NCBI RefSeq assembly: GCF_027011145.1
Contig: NZ_JALVAO010000062.1
Location: 1-53,817, forward strand
Source of the DNA: Thermococcus sp.
GTDB lineage: Archaea; Methanobacteriota_B; Thermococci; Thermococcales; Thermococcaceae
Length of the DNA stretch: 53,817 nucleotides
Direction of reading: 5' to 3'
Every line of letters starts with the position of its first letter. Positions within the stretch are counted from its first letter, which is position 1. The translations under genes were made by a program, and so were the position numbers. Below are positions 6,476 through 12,842 of the stretch, piece by piece. Below the pieces are notes generated by a model, which did not search any database, was not told where the DNA came from, and saw nothing but the letters and a program-made list of their open reading frames with translations.

Positions 6476-7696
6476 ATGAAGTTTGAGGAGCTCGTTGAGA
6501 AGGTCGTTAATGGAGAGATAAAGCTCCATCAGGTCGAGAAGTACACCGACAAGAGAACCGCAACGGAGGTAAGGAGGAAGGCCCTCGAGAGGAAGCTCGG
6601 AGTAAAGCTTGAGCACATCGGTCACTACTCGATAGACCCCGAGCAGGTTATCGGCAGGAACATTGAAAACATGATTGGCGTCGTCCAGATACCTATGGGT
6701 GTTGCTGGACCGCTCAAAATCAACGGAGAGTACGCAAAAGGCGAGTTCTACATCCCACTCGCGACGACTGAAGGGGCACTCGTTGCCAGCGTCAACCGCG
6801 GTTGCTCCGCTTTAACGGAAGCTGGAGGTGTAAAAACAACGCTCATAGACGACAAGATGACGCGCGCTCCGCTCCTCAAGTGTCCCGACGCGAGGAGAGC
6901 GAGGGAAGTCGCGGAATGGGTCAAGAACAACATCGACTACCTCCAGGAGAATGCGGTAAGCAAGGTTACCAGACACGGGAAGCTCCGGAGTGTTAAGCCC
7001 TTCATAGTCGGCAACAACCTTTATCTGCGCTTCGAGTTCGAAACCGGCGACGCGATGGGCATGAACATGGTAACGATAGCGAGCGAGGAGATAATGAAGG
7101 TCATCGAAGAGAAGTTCCCCGATGTGAGGTATCTGGCCCTCTCTGGCAACCTCTGCGTTGACAAGAAGCCGAACGCGACCAACTTCATCCTTGGAAGGGG
7201 CAAGACGGTCATAGCGGAGGCGATAATACCTAGGGAGATAGTCGAGAGAAAGCTGAAGACAACGCCGGAACTAATAGCCGAGGTCAACTACCGCAAAAAC
7301 CTCGTCGGTTCGGCTCAGGCGGGTTCCTACGGCTTCAACGCGCACTTCGGCAACATCGTCGGTGCAATCTTCCTCGCCACTGGACAGGACGAGGCCCAGA
7401 TAACTGAAGGTTCGCATGGCATAACTTTAGCCGAGGTCACCCCCGAGGGAGACCTCTACATAAGCATAACCATGCCGAGCCTCGAAATCGGAACCGTCGG
7501 CGGGGGAACGAGGGTTCCAACACAGAGGGAAGCGCTCTCGATTATGGGCGTGGCCGGTGGTGGAGAGCCGGCGGGAACAAACGCCAAGAAGTTCGCCGAG
7601 ATTGTGGCGGGTGCTGTTCTGGCGGGAGAACTTTCGCTCCTCGCGGCGATAGCGGCGAAACACCTCGCGAAGGCCCACAAGGAGCTCGGACGCTAA
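6476..7696 (+). CDS. hmgA: 3-hydroxy-3-methylglutaryl-CoA reductase
   Basis: 406 residues from ATG 6476 ([19 protein letters not shown]), with ribosome binding site GGGGGTG at 6464-6470. It reduces HMG-CoA to mevalonate, the committed step towards archaeal isoprenoid membrane lipids. All class I catalytic residues are visible: Glu99 in TTEGAL, Lys230 in CVDKKPN, Asp305 in GQDEAQ and His401 in the C-terminal tail LAKAHKELGR; the DAMGMN and GTVGGGT motifs are intact. No N-terminal membrane domain is present, as expected in archaea. It lies behind the ParA/MinD-like ATPase and overlaps the convergent membrane-protein gene by four bases. Confidence 0.97.
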   Translation: MKFEELVEKVVNGEIKLHQVEKYTDKRTATEVRRKALERKLGVKLEHIGHYSIDPEQVIGRNIENMIGVVQIPMGVAGPLKINGEYAKGEFYIPLATTEGALVASVNRGCSALTEAGGVKTTLIDDKMTRAPLLKCPDARRAREVAEWVKNNIDYLQENAVSKVTRHGKLRSVKPFIVGNNLYLRFEFETGDAMGMNMVTIASEEIMKVIEEKFPDVRYLALSGNLCVDKKPNATNFILGRGKTVIAEAIIPREIVERKLKTTPELIAEVNYRKNLVGSAQAGSYGFNAHFGNIVGAIFLATGQDEAQITEGSHGITLAEVTPEGDLYISITMPSLEIGTVGGGTRVPTQREALSIMGVAGGGEPAGTNAKKFAEIVAGAVLAGELSLLAAIAAKHLAKAHKELGR

Positions 7697-8274
7697 AGGG
7701 AAACCCTTACCACCTTACCCTTCTTTTCCGAGACCTCGTACATCTTTCTGACCATTTTTTCGCTCAGTTCGGTCATCATGTGCCTGCCTTTGGATTCTTC
7801 CCCCAAAAACTGCTCAACCGTCGTGAAAATGACACCAAGGAGAAGGGCTCCCCACAGGCCCGCATGGAAGTAGGCCGAAAGGGAACCTACGACCAGTGTG
7901 GCAACGCCGTCTATCAGCAGACGCCATTTTCGGGCTTTTCGCTTCCATCCTCTATCGCTCAGCCTTTCAAGGTCGTTCTCGGCAAGGGCCCTGAAAAACT
8001 CTCCAAGTCCCCTCTTAGGAACGACGAAAACTCTGGGCAGGGTTTCGTTAATTAGGATTAGGTCTCCCTTGACGGGGAGGACGAAGACGTAACGATTGCT
8101 CCCCCTGACATCAACCACCAGCAAACCCTCGTTCTTTCCGGGAACTGGGACTATTGAAAAGCTCTCGGGTGAAGGGTTCTTGAACTCGAAAGCTGAGGGA
8201 AAAACCTCCCTAACCATCTCGGGGAAAACGTTCAGCTCGTAGTACAGGATAGGCACGGCGTTTATGAACCTCAT
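7693..8274 (-). CDS. uncharacterised two-helix membrane protein
   Basis: 193 residues. A soluble N-terminal part of about 120 residues (MRFINAVPILYYELNVFPEM...) is followed by a hydrophobic hairpin (GVATLVVGSLSAYFHAG and GALLLGVIFTTVEQF, about 123-158) and a basic cytosolic tail. No family is recognised. The next gene leftward in transcription order, 8383-8883, has the same plan: soluble N-terminus starting with a YY-E-L segment, two helices near the C-terminus and a basic tail, so the two may be diverged paralogues. A TATA-like TTTAAA near 8297-8303 can drive it independently. Confidence 0.75.
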   Translation of the reverse strand: MRFINAVPILYYELNVFPEMVREVFPSAFEFKNPSPESFSIVPVPGKNEGLLVVDVRGSNRYVFVLPVKGDLILINETLPRVFVVPKRGLGEFFRALAENDLERLSDRGWKRKARKWRLLIDGVATLVVGSLSAYFHAGLWGALLLGVIFTTVEQFLGEESKGRHMMTELSEKMVRKMYEVSEKKGKVVRVSL

Positions 8275-8365: not shown

Positions 8366-8398
8366 ATGATGACCAATTTCCCTCACTCCGAGGTGTGA
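8366..8398 (+). other. mini-ORF behind a good ribosome binding site
   Basis: ATG ATG ... TGA encodes ten residues (MMTNFPHSEV) and overlaps the tail of the convergent 166-residue gene. Either this is the start of a lost plus-strand gene, a leader-type peptide, or coincidence. There is no protein-family evidence. Confidence 0.2.
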
Positions 8399-8883
8399 CG
8401 AGGAGCCGATGCTCTGACCCGCTTCCTCTTTTTGTAGCCTCTCTTAAAGTTCTCAATAACCCCCGAGAGCAAGAAAAGAAGGGCCACATATGAGAAGACC
8501 TCATTGAGGGCATCGTTTTTGTAGCCAAAATAGCCGAGAAGAATTGCCACGCCCCAGAGGACGGCCTGGACAACGTTTATAACAGTATTGAACCGGGATT
8601 TCTTCACGCCCAGGATTTCCTCCGCCACGTTCTTAAGTCCGCCCTCCCGAGAAACGAGGAACTCGTAAACCTTCCCACCAAGTTCGTATTCCCCCGGGGC
8701 AACATACACGGCCTTGGGGGTTTTCACGACGGTTATTTTTGGACTCGAATACGCCACCTGAAGAAGGGCATCCTTTAGTGCTTCAACATCGGGTGAAAAA
8801 AGGGCAATGTAATTCCTGAGGGTTCCTTTCACATTGTCTTTGTCGAGCTCGTGGTAATAGACCACAAACTTCGCTTTGACCAT
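8383..8883 (-). CDS. uncharacterised two-helix membrane protein
   Basis: 166 residues. The first ~100 are soluble (MVKAKFVVYYHELDKDNVKG...), then come two predicted transmembrane helices (VVQAVLWGVAILLGYFGY and VFSYVALLFLLSGVIENF, about 103-145) and a very basic tail (KRGYKKRKRVRASAPR). Function unknown. It resembles the neighbouring 193-residue protein in architecture and opening segment. It lies upstream of that gene and downstream of gatE on the same strand. The positive tail should face the cytosol. Confidence 0.75.
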   Translation of the reverse strand: MVKAKFVVYYHELDKDNVKGTLRNYIALFSPDVEALKDALLQVAYSSPKITVVKTPKAVYVAPGEYELGGKVYEFLVSREGGLKNVAEEILGVKKSRFNTVINVVQAVLWGVAILLGYFGYKNDALNEVFSYVALLFLLSGVIENFKRGYKKRKRVRASAPRHTSE

Positions 8884-8913: not shown

Positions 8914-10806
8914 TTAACCTTTGCTCGCCTCCTGAATCTTCTTCCTGACGAGCTGGCTGACGAGCTTACCGTCCGCCCTGCCACGTAGCTTCGCCATTGC
9001 CCTTCCCATTATCATGCCCATCGCTCCCATCCCCTTGGCCTTTATGACGTCGATGTCGGCTTTGACGACCTCGTCGATGATTTTCTCGACCTCGTCTTCA
9101 CTCAGGAGCGTTAGACCCTTTTCCTCTGCAACCTGCTCGGCCGTCTTCTCCGGGTGCCTGGCGAGTTCCTTGAAAATCTCCTCAAAGGCCTCCTTTGCAA
9201 TCCTGCCGTTGAGGTAGAGCTCAAAGGCCTCCCTGATGTGCTCCTCGGTTATCTTCTCTATCGGAACCTCCTTCTTAAGCCCCTTGAGAACAACCACGAG
9301 GATTGAAGCAACCAGCGATGGCTTTATGCCCTTTTTCACGAGCTCCTCAAAGAGCTCATCGCGCTCGTCGTTGACGAGGGTTTCAGCCAGGCTCCTGTCA
9401 ATCTTGTACTCCTTCACGAAGCGCTCAACCCTTTCCTGTGGCAACTCCGGAAGGTTCGCCCTAATCCTCTCCTTCTCCTCCGGCGGGATGAAAATCGAGG
9501 GTATGTCCGTTTCAGGATACATTCTCGCTTTACCCGGGAGGGGACGCATGTACTGAGTATTGCCGTCCGGCAAAGCCCTCCTCGTCTCCTCTGGAACGCC
9601 CTCTATCGCTTCTCTAGCGCGCTTGATTACCTCGCGAAGGGCTTTCTTGGCGGTTTCCTCCTCCGCGGCGACAAGAACGAACGCGTCTTCTTCGTCAAGG
9701 TTAAGTTTTTCGATGATTGCATTAACCTCTTTTTCTGTAATTCCATAGTTCGGTAGTTCATCAATGTGGAAGATTCCCCTCACGTACTTTTTGGCCCTGT
9801 CTGCCATCTCAGTCCCAAGTCTCCTGCCCGGCTGGATTTCCCTGCCTATAAGCCCGCGGAACTTCGGCAACTTAACGGCAAGAACCTTCCCGCCTTTCTT
9901 TATCATCCGGGCTATTATCTTTGATTCAGTGTTCCTAAAGACGTCGGTAACGTCGTAGAATTCCTCCTTGATGTCATCTGGCTTAACGCCCCTCGCGTGA
10001 AGCTCGTCGCGGATTTTGAGAAGGTTGAGCTGTCTTTCAACCTCGCGCTCGATGATGAGGGGAATCATGTCCAGCTCCTGGACGCCTTTAATCTCGACGC
10101 GAGCGCCACCTTTAATTGAGACGTTCAAATCCTGCCTTATCGTTCCGAGACCGCGCTTGACCTTTCTCGTTGCCCTTAGAGCATCGCCTATGTACTTCGC
10201 GACTACTTTAGCCTGCTCTGGGTGGTGTATGTCAGGGGTTGTGCTTATCTCAACCAGCGGGATTCCGAGGCGGTCGAGGCGGTAGATTACCTCCTTCTCC
10301 TTCCTCTCGACTATCCTACAGGCATCCTCCTCAAGGCATATCGTCGGGATTCCAACGCTCCCCCAGGGAGTATCAACCCTACCGTCGAGCGCTATTATCG
10401 CCGTTCTTTGAAAACCTGAAACGTTCGAGCCGTCTATGACTATTTTACGCATGAAGTGAACTTCATCAACGGGCTTTGCGTTGAGGAGGTAGGCAATCTG
10501 AAGCGAAACTTCAAGGGCTTCCCTGTCGGGTCCCCTCGGCGGTTCCTCATCCATGTAAACCAAATCGCTTAGCTCGTAGTTGCCCTCGTAGATGTATTTT
10601 CTTCCCTTCTTGAATTCCTCCAGAGCAGCGGGGTCAATTTCCCCTAGCTCGCTCATAGTGGGCCTTAAGCGTCTTTCAAAGGTGAAGTCAACCTTCTCGG
10701 TCAGCTCGCTCGGAACGGGTGAAAACAGCTTTTTAGTATCGAGTTGCCTGTGAATCTCAAGGCCGACCTTTAGGCCGAGCTTTTCGTAATCGAACTTCTC
10801 GGTCAT
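8914..10806 (-). CDS. gatE: glutamyl-tRNA(Gln) amidotransferase subunit E
   Basis: 630 residues, the full archaeal length. GatE is the kinase and tRNA-binding subunit of the archaea-specific GatDE enzyme, which converts Glu-tRNA(Gln) to Gln-tRNA(Gln) using ammonia from GatD. The GatB-like cradle begins at [19 protein letters not shown]; an AspRS-like insertion follows around residues 270-420, and a helical plus YqeY-like tail ends [19 protein letters not shown]. The ATG at 10804-10806 has ribosome binding site GGAGGTG inside the end of vapC, whose TGA overlaps it (ATGA). In most organisms its natural partner gene is gatD; here vapB-vapC separates them. Confidence 0.97.
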
Positions 10807-11249
10807 CTCAACACCTCCAGATTGGTTCTCAAAAAGTCATCGTCAAATGTCGCAATCTTTCTTATCCCGTAATACTCACAGGCAGAGGCAATCAGAGAGT
10901 CGTTTGGTAGGAGACCAAACTTAACCCGTATTTCACGGGAGAGACGTACGACTTCCCATGTCTCATCGAGGAAAGTCAATGCGTTTGACGCTAGGAGTAA
11001 ATCCAAGAGTTCATCAAAGGTAGCCACTGGTTTGTACAGCTCTGGACTCTTGGTAAGCTCTTTTCTCAGGGAGTAGAACTTGTAGCTTCCCCTTAGCTTT
11101 GCGTAGTTCCTCGCAAGTAGCTGAAAGACGACCTCACCGTATATTGTAGGGGTTATTGCAAGGTGATACTCACTAACCAGGCGTTCCATTAGCTTGATTC
11201 CACGCTCTTCACCAAGCAAGTAGTCTATCCAGACGTTTGAGTCAACCAT
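10803..11249 (-). CDS. vapC: PIN-domain toxin, VapC family
   Basis: 148 residues from ATG 11247-11249 ([13 protein letters not shown]); this start overlaps the end of vapB by eight bases, and longer in-frame starts (11276, 11297) would run deep into vapB. PIN acidic residues are visible: Asp3 in MVDSNVW, a Glu in YGEVVFQL, Asp in PNDSLIASA and Asp in ATFDDDFL. VapC proteins are Mg-dependent ribonucleases, and many characterised members cleave tRNA or rRNA. Its stop overlaps the gatE start (ATGA). Target and activity are not deducible from sequence. Confidence 0.88.
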
Positions 11250-11454
11250 TACTGGCTCTCTTGAGAACGTACTCATGGTAGGCCTCCTCCCAATCAATTT
11301 CTTGGGCTTCTCTGAGCTCTCTAAGGATTCCCGCGTATTTCTTTATAATCTCCCTAGGGTTTGTTACCACTACCTCCACTTCGGTCCCCTCGGGCAGGTT
11401 AACGTCATCGAGGGGCTTAAAGACGCCGTTTTTGTAAACGGCCCGGATTCCCAT
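11242..11454 (-). CDS. vapB: DUF104 (AF2212-like) antitoxin, VapB type
   Basis: 70 residues from ATG 11452-11454 (MGIRAVYKNGVFKPLDDVNL), chosen because GAGGTGAT lies just upstream within the end of gatD. The pattern AVYKNGVFKPL...LPEGTEVEVVV is the hallmark of DUF104 antitoxins, which form small beta-barrel DNA-binding dimers; the C-terminal helical part (REAQEIDWEEAYHEYVLKR) should wrap the PIN toxin. It starts seven bases before the end of gatD and overlaps vapC, so gatD, vapB, vapC and gatE form one coupled string. Confidence 0.85.
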   Translation of the reverse strand: MGIRAVYKNGVFKPLDDVNLPEGTEVEVVVTNPREIIKKYAGILRELREAQEIDWEEAYHEYVLKRASNG

Positions 11455-11459
11455 TACAA

Positions 11460-12779
11460 TCACCTCAGGAAGGTGTCAAACCTCGTGTAGGGCGTTATCT
11501 CGCCGGCGTAGTTGGTGAGCATCATCTTTCTCACTTCATCGAGGTCATTGGTGTGGCCGAGAACCCACATCAGCTTGACGTAGGCAGTCTCAGGCAACAT
11601 GTCCTCGCAGGGAATCGCTCCAGCCTTAAGGAGCTTTCTCCCGTTGGAGTAGACGTTCAGGTTCACCCTTCCGTAGAGGCACTGGCTCGTTACGCAGACC
11701 GCTACACCCTCCTCAACGGCGCGCTGGACGTGGGGTATGAAATCCTGAGGAACGTGACCGAGGCCCGTTCCCTCGATGACAACTCCCTTATAACCCCTAT
11801 CAACGAGGAAATCTAGTATCTCACCGCTTATTCCCGGGTAGATTTTGAGGATTGCAACTTTTTCCTCCATCTTGCCGTCCACTTCGACTTCCCCTTCGCT
11901 CCTCTTTCTGTAATCGCTCCTAAGGAACTCTATCTCATCCTTAGGCCATACCCTGGCTATTGGGACGTCGTTTATACTCCTGAATGCATCTCTCCTGCTC
12001 GTGTGCATCTTCCTTACCTTAGTTCCGCGATGAGCCAAGCAGTAGGTGTCGCTCGTTTCTCCATGCATAACCACCATAACCTCAGCAACTTCGCTGGTTG
12101 CCATCCTCACGGCACAGGTAAGGTTCATGGCGGAGTCACTGCTCGGCCTGTCGGAGCTCCTCTGCGCTCCAACGAGAACGACCGGCTTTGTGAGGTTCCT
12201 GAGCATGAAGCTCAATGCAGAGGCGGTATAGCCCATAGTGTCCGTTCCGTGGGCAATAACAACTCCATCCTCGCCGGAGTTGAGGGCCTTAGCCACTTCC
12301 TCTGCTATCTTAATCCAATAGGCCGGTTTCATGTCCTCGCTGAGGATGTTCATTATGAGCTTCGGAGTAACGTTGGCCATCTCAAAAATCTCGGGAACAG
12401 CTTTAGCGAGTTCTTCAGCGGTGAAGGCCGGGTGAACGGCACCGGTCTTGTAGTCTATTCTACTCGCTATCGTTCCTCCAGTTCCAAGGATTGTAACGTT
12501 GGGAAGGCCCTCCTTCCTAGGAAGGACTTCTTGGAAGACCATTTTCGGCTTTTCAACGGCCTTCTCAAGTATCTCAACGCTCTCAATGGCGTCGATAAGG
12601 ATTCCGACGTTGTAGCCGTTGTCGAGCTTTATGGTAAGCGTTTCCCCGGGAGAAAGCTCGTAGGGGGGCATTACAAGACCTTCAAACGTAATCCGCTCGT
12701 TTCCCTCCCTCTTGACGACTCTGATTAGGTCTCCAACCTCGAGACCATGCTTTTTCATGAACTCCTCAACCTTCCTCAT
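11460..12779 (-). CDS. gatD: glutamyl-tRNA(Gln) amidotransferase subunit D
   Basis: 439 residues from ATG 12777-12779 (MRKVEEFMKKHGLEVGD), with GAGGGGATG upstream; an ATG six bases earlier is also in frame but sits on the ribosome binding site. GatD is the asparaginase-like subunit that releases ammonia from glutamine or asparagine for GatE. A ~90-residue N-terminal beta domain precedes the asparaginase core, with the nucleophile region LGTGGTIASR, the second motif AHGTDTMGYT and the downstream VGAQRSSDRPSSD. It is the first gene of the gatD-vapB-vapC-gatE string. Confidence 0.97.
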   Translation of the reverse strand: MRKVEEFMKKHGLEVGDLIRVVKREGNERITFEGLVMPPYELSPGETLTIKLDNGYNVGILIDAIESVEILEKAVEKPKMVFQEVLPRKEGLPNVTILGTGGTIASRIDYKTGAVHPAFTAEELAKAVPEIFEMANVTPKLIMNILSEDMKPAYWIKIAEEVAKALNSGEDGVVIAHGTDTMGYTASALSFMLRNLTKPVVLVGAQRSSDRPSSDSAMNLTCAVRMATSEVAEVMVVMHGETSDTYCLAHRGTKVRKMHTSRRDAFRSINDVPIARVWPKDEIEFLRSDYRKRSEGEVEVDGKMEEKVAILKIYPGISGEILDFLVDRGYKGVVIEGTGLGHVPQDFIPHVQRAVEEGVAVCVTSQCLYGRVNLNVYSNGRKLLKAGAIPCEDMLPETAYVKLMWVLGHTNDLDEVRKMMLTNYAGEITPYTRFDTFLR

Positions 12780-12842
12780 AAGCATCCCCTCGTTTTGTCA
12801 CTGAAAGAAAATAGGGACGGGGTTTTATAGGGCTTTCCCAGG

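Follow-up and report, generated by a model that had tools for sequence, protein, structure and literature searches.

A VapBC toxin-antitoxin pair as a probable exchangeable cassette at the gatD-gatE junction of Thermococcus

The window analyzed here, a stretch of 53,817 nucleotides, belongs as contig C62 to the draft genome of a Thermococcus (G000). On its minus strand a toxin-antitoxin pair separates the genes for subunits D and E of the Glu-tRNA(Gln) amidotransferase GatDE, on which archaea depend for Gln-tRNA. The locus comprises the following features:

12824..12838, minus strand: probable gatD promoter, BRE/TATA-like GGAAAGCCCTATAAA, the best-scoring site near the operon
11460..12785 (start at 12785 or 12779), minus strand: gatD, Glu-tRNA(Gln) amidotransferase subunit D (TIGR02153 equivalog, 659.5 bits against a cut-off of 324)
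11459..11466, minus strand: Shine-Dalgarno site GAGGTGAT across the gatD stop codon, from the junction alignment
11242..11454, minus strand: vapB, AF2212-like (DUF104, COG2880) antitoxin of 70 aa (PF01954, E 3.5e-18)
10803..11249, minus strand: vapC, PIN-domain toxin of 148 aa (PF01850, E 6e-19)
10810..10838, minus strand: near-invariant 3' tail of vapC, GACTTTTTGAGAAC....CTGGAGGTGTT, which includes the gatE Shine-Dalgarno site GGAGGTG (10812-10818)
8914..10806, minus strand: gatE, Glu-tRNA(Gln) amidotransferase subunit E (NF003107 equivalog, 934 bits against 456)

Curated family models identify each of the genes; the order gatD-vapB-vapC-gatE and the tight coupling of the four genes described in the original prediction are confirmed, with spacings of +5 nt (gatD/vapB), -8 nt (vapB/vapC) and -4 nt (vapC/gatE). 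The 8-nt overlap of vapB with vapC (ATGGTTGA) and the ATGA in which the gatE ATG overlaps the vapC stop were also correctly described. The start of vapB, which had been placed inside the end of gatD, was wrong: homology and the Shine-Dalgarno site put it at 11454, 5 nt past the gatD stop and 4-5 nt downstream of the AGGTGAT Shine-Dalgarno site; this ATG position is also where homologues begin, with ATG, GTG or TTG. An in-frame GTG at 11463, overlapping the gatD stop, has no Shine-Dalgarno site. Assembly error, raised earlier as a concern, is excluded because the architecture recurs in ten further genomes, of which five consist of a single contig. Two small ORFs without a Pfam match lie 3' of gatE on the minus strand (window 7693-8274 and 8383-8883), the nearer beginning ~30 nt past the gatE stop. 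The GatE matches at L015, L016, L019, L026 and L028-L030 cross one TGA in full-length alignment to the window protein, which probably reflects merely a C terminus two residues shorter.

The pair in the window is likely to be a working type II toxin-antitoxin system, because the toxin keeps its acidic residues, is confidently modelled with a PIN fold closest to VapC toxins and evolves under purifying selection, and because the antitoxin matches an established family. A check of the acidic PIN residues of VapC found no disabling mutation: D3, E39, D117 and D136 are all intact in the window copy, and across 24 VapCs compared the first three are invariant and D136 nearly so. The bodies of lineage-I vapC genes (defined below) give dN/dS values of 0.05-0.15, which indicate purifying selection; values from out-of-frame extraction, namely vapC pairs with G011 and some gatD pairs, were left out. 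A sequence search of the PDB with VapC returned no match, and a fold search was therefore used; the AlphaFold model (pLDDT 95.3) has a PIN fold and, among PDB structures, comes closest to VapC toxins. With the NCBIfam VapC model the protein stays under the cut-off (23.3 vs 80 bits). VapB is recognized by PF01954 with 66.2 bits (cut-off 21.6) and matches AF2212 (PDB 2nwt; phmmer E 1e-4), and in the copies read its 70-aa gene lies directly upstream of the toxin gene with the same 8-nt overlap. Makarova et al. 2009 (PMC2701414) pair COG2880/DUF104 antitoxins with PIN toxins.

Of 94 Thermococcaceae genomes (one genome per species, some incomplete), 86 had a gatD-gatE junction that could be read. 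Whether the pair occupies this junction in all species or only in some had been posed as a question, and the answer is only some: gatD and gatE are adjacent at 69 of the 86 readable junctions, vapBC lies between them at 11, and the other 6 hold a remnant, a scar or an orphan antitoxin. Empty junctions have a gatD-gatE distance of -4 to 12 nt and the typical sequence CTGAGGTGATNNNATG. All 11 full copies, five of them in single-contig genomes, sit at exactly one point, precisely between the gatD stop with its Shine-Dalgarno site and the gatE start, and VapC relatives of at least ~50% identity were found only in these 11 genomes. Near sisters with a clean empty junction exist both for the window genome (G002) and for G013 (G031). 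The VapCs form two lineages, I (G000, G005, G094, G014, G001 and G013) and II (G015, G027, G089, G011 and G095), which share ~53% nucleotide identity at the same site, even in sister species.

In G061 most of vapB is fused in frame to the final vapC codons, such that the toxin is deleted and both the gatE coupling and the vapC tail are kept, and G072 bears a 115-nt scar that resembles vapB at its start and vapC at its end; these two genomes represent two other genera (g11 and g12, respectively). Antitoxin-only junctions number 5 and toxin-only junctions 0, an asymmetry that is consistent with addiction but goes back to roughly three independent events. At the junctions of G022, G006, G065 and G069 (L014, L016, L206 and L207) a DUF104 antitoxin-like gene stands alone and has a TATA-like site of its own; in the first two its stop overlaps the GTG start of gatE. 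In two genomes from another family of the class (G048 and G044; L040 and L041) the gap holds a ~1 kb gene for a thioredoxin-like membrane protein; the junction thus accepts unrelated genes too.

The BRE/TATA-like site upstream of gatD, which falls in the top 0.01% of window minus-strand positions, is the sole strong one near the operon and is almost unchanged in the empty-site sister G002. This suggests that vapBC relies on the gatD promoter for its expression. A crude BRE/TATA scan revealed no evident promoter belonging to vapBC and no good site directly upstream of vapB; an internal vapB candidate, GGGAGATTATAAA near 11354, was discarded because the alignment shows no conservation of it. The earlier statement that the pair cannot be transcribed or translated independently therefore holds in part, in that coupling is tight and no separate promoter is evident in this crude scan, but 'cannot' exceeds what can be read from sequence.

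In the junction alignment, the Shine-Dalgarno site at the gatD stop serves gatE in empty genomes and vapB in the window. At the other end of the module, the final ~36 nt of vapC are nearly identical between the two lineages, unlike the gene bodies, and the pattern GACTTTTTGAGAAC....CTGG.GGTGTT is present as a single copy in 11 of the 94 genomes, only at the gatDE junction. These 11 are ten full copies plus the G061 remnant, with the full copy in G089 one base off. Conserved residues are codon-invariant in 5 of 8 cases in the tail, compared with 2 of 46 in the vapC body (Fisher p 3e-4), and the tail with its gatE Shine-Dalgarno site is retained even in the toxin-less G061. Selection for gatE initiation and recombination breakpoints within the tail are both possible causes of this conservation, and neither excludes the other.

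When vapBC is compared with its hosts, the two histories disagree. On an rpoB tree covering 28 genomes, presence of the pair is patchy and does not track the branching, with 10 changes between full and empty states against a mean of 8.9 for shuffled labels. The sister genomes G005 (lineage I) and G015 (lineage II) have gatD and gatE flanks that are ~90% identical around vapC bodies of 53% nucleotide identity, and between lineages identity rises from 40-60% to 86-98% at the vapC end. Conversely, vapBC of G014 and G001 is 98-99% identical at the nucleotide level, against 86.7% for rpoB, 89.5% for gatD and 88.8% for gatE. The vapC nearest to that of the window is from G094 (dS 0.33 for vapC against 0.98 for gatE), whereas G002, the closest relative of the window genome, has an empty junction. 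Forcing vapC into the host groupings G005+G015 (p 3e-5), G001+G013 (p 0.008) or G027+G094 (p 4e-64) is rejected by AU tests. The G094 module itself appears to be a mosaic, its vapB being nearest to lineage II in the 5' part and resembling lineage I, to which its vapC belongs, in the remainder. The tree conflict, the AU tests, the transfer tracts and the G094 mosaic together show that vapBC has been transferred between species, clearly so for some modules, and replaced in place.

The flanks give a mixed picture of how this exchange occurs. For two recently exchanged pairs the similarity of the gatE start is unusually high (98th and 99th percentile), but for G014/G001 it is only at the 17th percentile, and similarity of the gatD end is not clearly raised in any exchanged pair, so that flank similarity backs homologous recombination around the module only in part. 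A search of plasmids for a carrier element gave one weak match (31% identity, Methanocaldococcus), and viral contigs gave none. For T. kodakarensis, natural competence has been documented (PMC7137780).

Similar modules are found in other operons. Of 30 genomes, 3 (G005, G009 and G090; L306, L309 and L310) have a related DUF104-PIN pair between gcvPA and gcvPB, which encode glycine dehydrogenase subunits; in the other 27 these two genes are adjacent. Further vapBC pairs adjoin surE, a QueD-like gene, moeA and others. In most Thermococcus genomes the sulfhydrogenase maturation protease gene is preceded by vapBC-like genes (L355-L382), often behind a T-rich stretch after hydA, and because of this stretch they are probably expressed separately.

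Taken together, these observations make it quite probable that in Thermococcus a functional type II VapBC pair exists as an exchangeable cassette, which occupies a single fixed position between gatD and gatE. The pair would be transcribed from the gatD promoter and would therefore need no regulated promoter of its own; ribosomes would initiate vapB at the Shine-Dalgarno site of the gatD end, get to vapC through the overlap and initiate gatE from the Shine-Dalgarno site within the vapC tail. As the tail would thus hand back this site, insertion may be nearly neutral for the essential enzyme. VapC would be an RNase kept in check by VapB, and the cassette would have spread by DNA uptake and recombination at the junction. 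A broader proposal, to which we give about even chances, is that gatD-gatE is a fixed-site exchange locus where one vapBC body is substituted for another through recombination, probably following natural uptake of DNA, with breakpoints at the gatD end and in the vapC tail, the latter being kept because gatE needs its Shine-Dalgarno site; the same habit would extend to other two-subunit operons such as gcvPA-gcvPB and form a general route for promoterless toxin-antitoxin modules to pass between archaea without a mobile element.

We considered whether the pair might instead serve the enzyme whose genes surround it. The original prediction suggested that toxin supply is tied to Gln-tRNA charging, and in its explicit form VapC, perhaps a tRNA RNase, would be made in proportion to GatDE and would sense or adjust Gln-tRNA supply. 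The tight coupling of all four genes fits such a dedicated regulator, as does the fact that tRNAs are frequent targets of bacterial VapCs, although VapC4 of S. acidocaldarius cleaved mRNA and rRNA and not the tRNAs tested (PMC11633383). This role is nevertheless very unlikely, given that 69 of 86 relatives, near sisters included, lack the pair at this junction, that two strongly diverged VapC lineages share the site and that a similar module resides within gcvPAB. Since presence at gatDE is patchy and vapBC pairs occur in gcvPA-gcvPB and other operons, the tie to Gln-tRNA synthesis appears to be one of position and not of function, and vapBC is better seen as a mobile passenger in the operon than as a regulator of GatDE.

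It had also been proposed that the pair stabilises itself by residing in an essential operon, so that loss of the module would harm gatDE. In the window genome gatDE is likely the sole route to Gln-tRNA, as a search gave a single GatE match and no GlnRS (glnS) match over the cut-off, and the toxin-deleted G061 retains both the vapC tail and the gatE coupling. Clean empty junctions are, however, common among sister species (G002 and G031 among them), and nothing thus prevents removal; the remnant without its toxin and the scar likewise speak against such anchoring, and the location could equally mean that only insertions harmless to gatE survive. We therefore regard stabilisation through linkage as unlikely. 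Inheritance from the ancestor of Thermococcus with repeated loss and no exchange would account for the single site of all copies, and the remnants in two other genera mean that the presence of vapBC may indeed be old. Yet the strong conflict between vapC and host trees, the near-identical modules of G014 and G001 and the different lineages in sister species contradict vertical descent as the sole explanation, as does the mosaic appearance of G094 vapB, and we consider it the least probable of these readings; old presence combined with exchange is possible.

Insertion of a toxin-antitoxin pair into a core operon has bacterial precedents. In relA-mazEF-mazG and dinB-yafNO-yafP of E. coli, a type II pair likewise occupies an intercistronic gap of a core operon, strains without the pair have an undisturbed bicistronic operon, as relatives without vapBC have adjacent gatD and gatE, and no functional link of mazEF or yafNO to the host operon is thought to exist (PMC7167474). 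The gatDE case differs in being archaeal, in involving a probably essential aminoacyl-tRNA operon, in having no evident promoter of its own, in its tightness at both junctions and in the swapping of two lineages at one point. A further parallel, which PMC7167474 takes from Mine et al. 2009, is ccd(O157) between folA and apaH of E. coli, which shares the fixed chromosomal insertion point, patchy presence and decay of the toxin-antitoxin genes; that gap can hold REP elements, whereas the alternatives at gatDE are the other VapC lineage, an orphan antitoxin or nothing. The PIN-COG2880 (DUF104) family has the same toxin and antitoxin domains as the gatDE pair, and the available text of PMC2701414 describes this pairing and its expansion in Archaeoglobus and does not describe residence inside gatDE. 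Our literature searches on gatD/gatE with VapC, and on toxin-antitoxin pairs in essential operons, found nothing on the gatD-gatE junction. What is new here is the fixed-site swapping of lineages and the adapted vapC tail.

It has been described as unresolved how toxin-antitoxin pairs on chromosomes reach new hosts and integrate there (PMC7167474), and the gatDE locus offers a natural series at one point, in which empty sites stand beside two full lineages and a mosaic, together with orphan antitoxins, a scar and a remnant that has lost its toxin. The series suggests that movement at this locus needs no visible mobile element and that the module is adapted to keep an essential downstream gene translated, and with the competence of T. 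kodakarensis both cassette exchange and its cost to gatE are directly testable. It also cautions against inferring the function of toxin-antitoxin genes from their operon neighbours.
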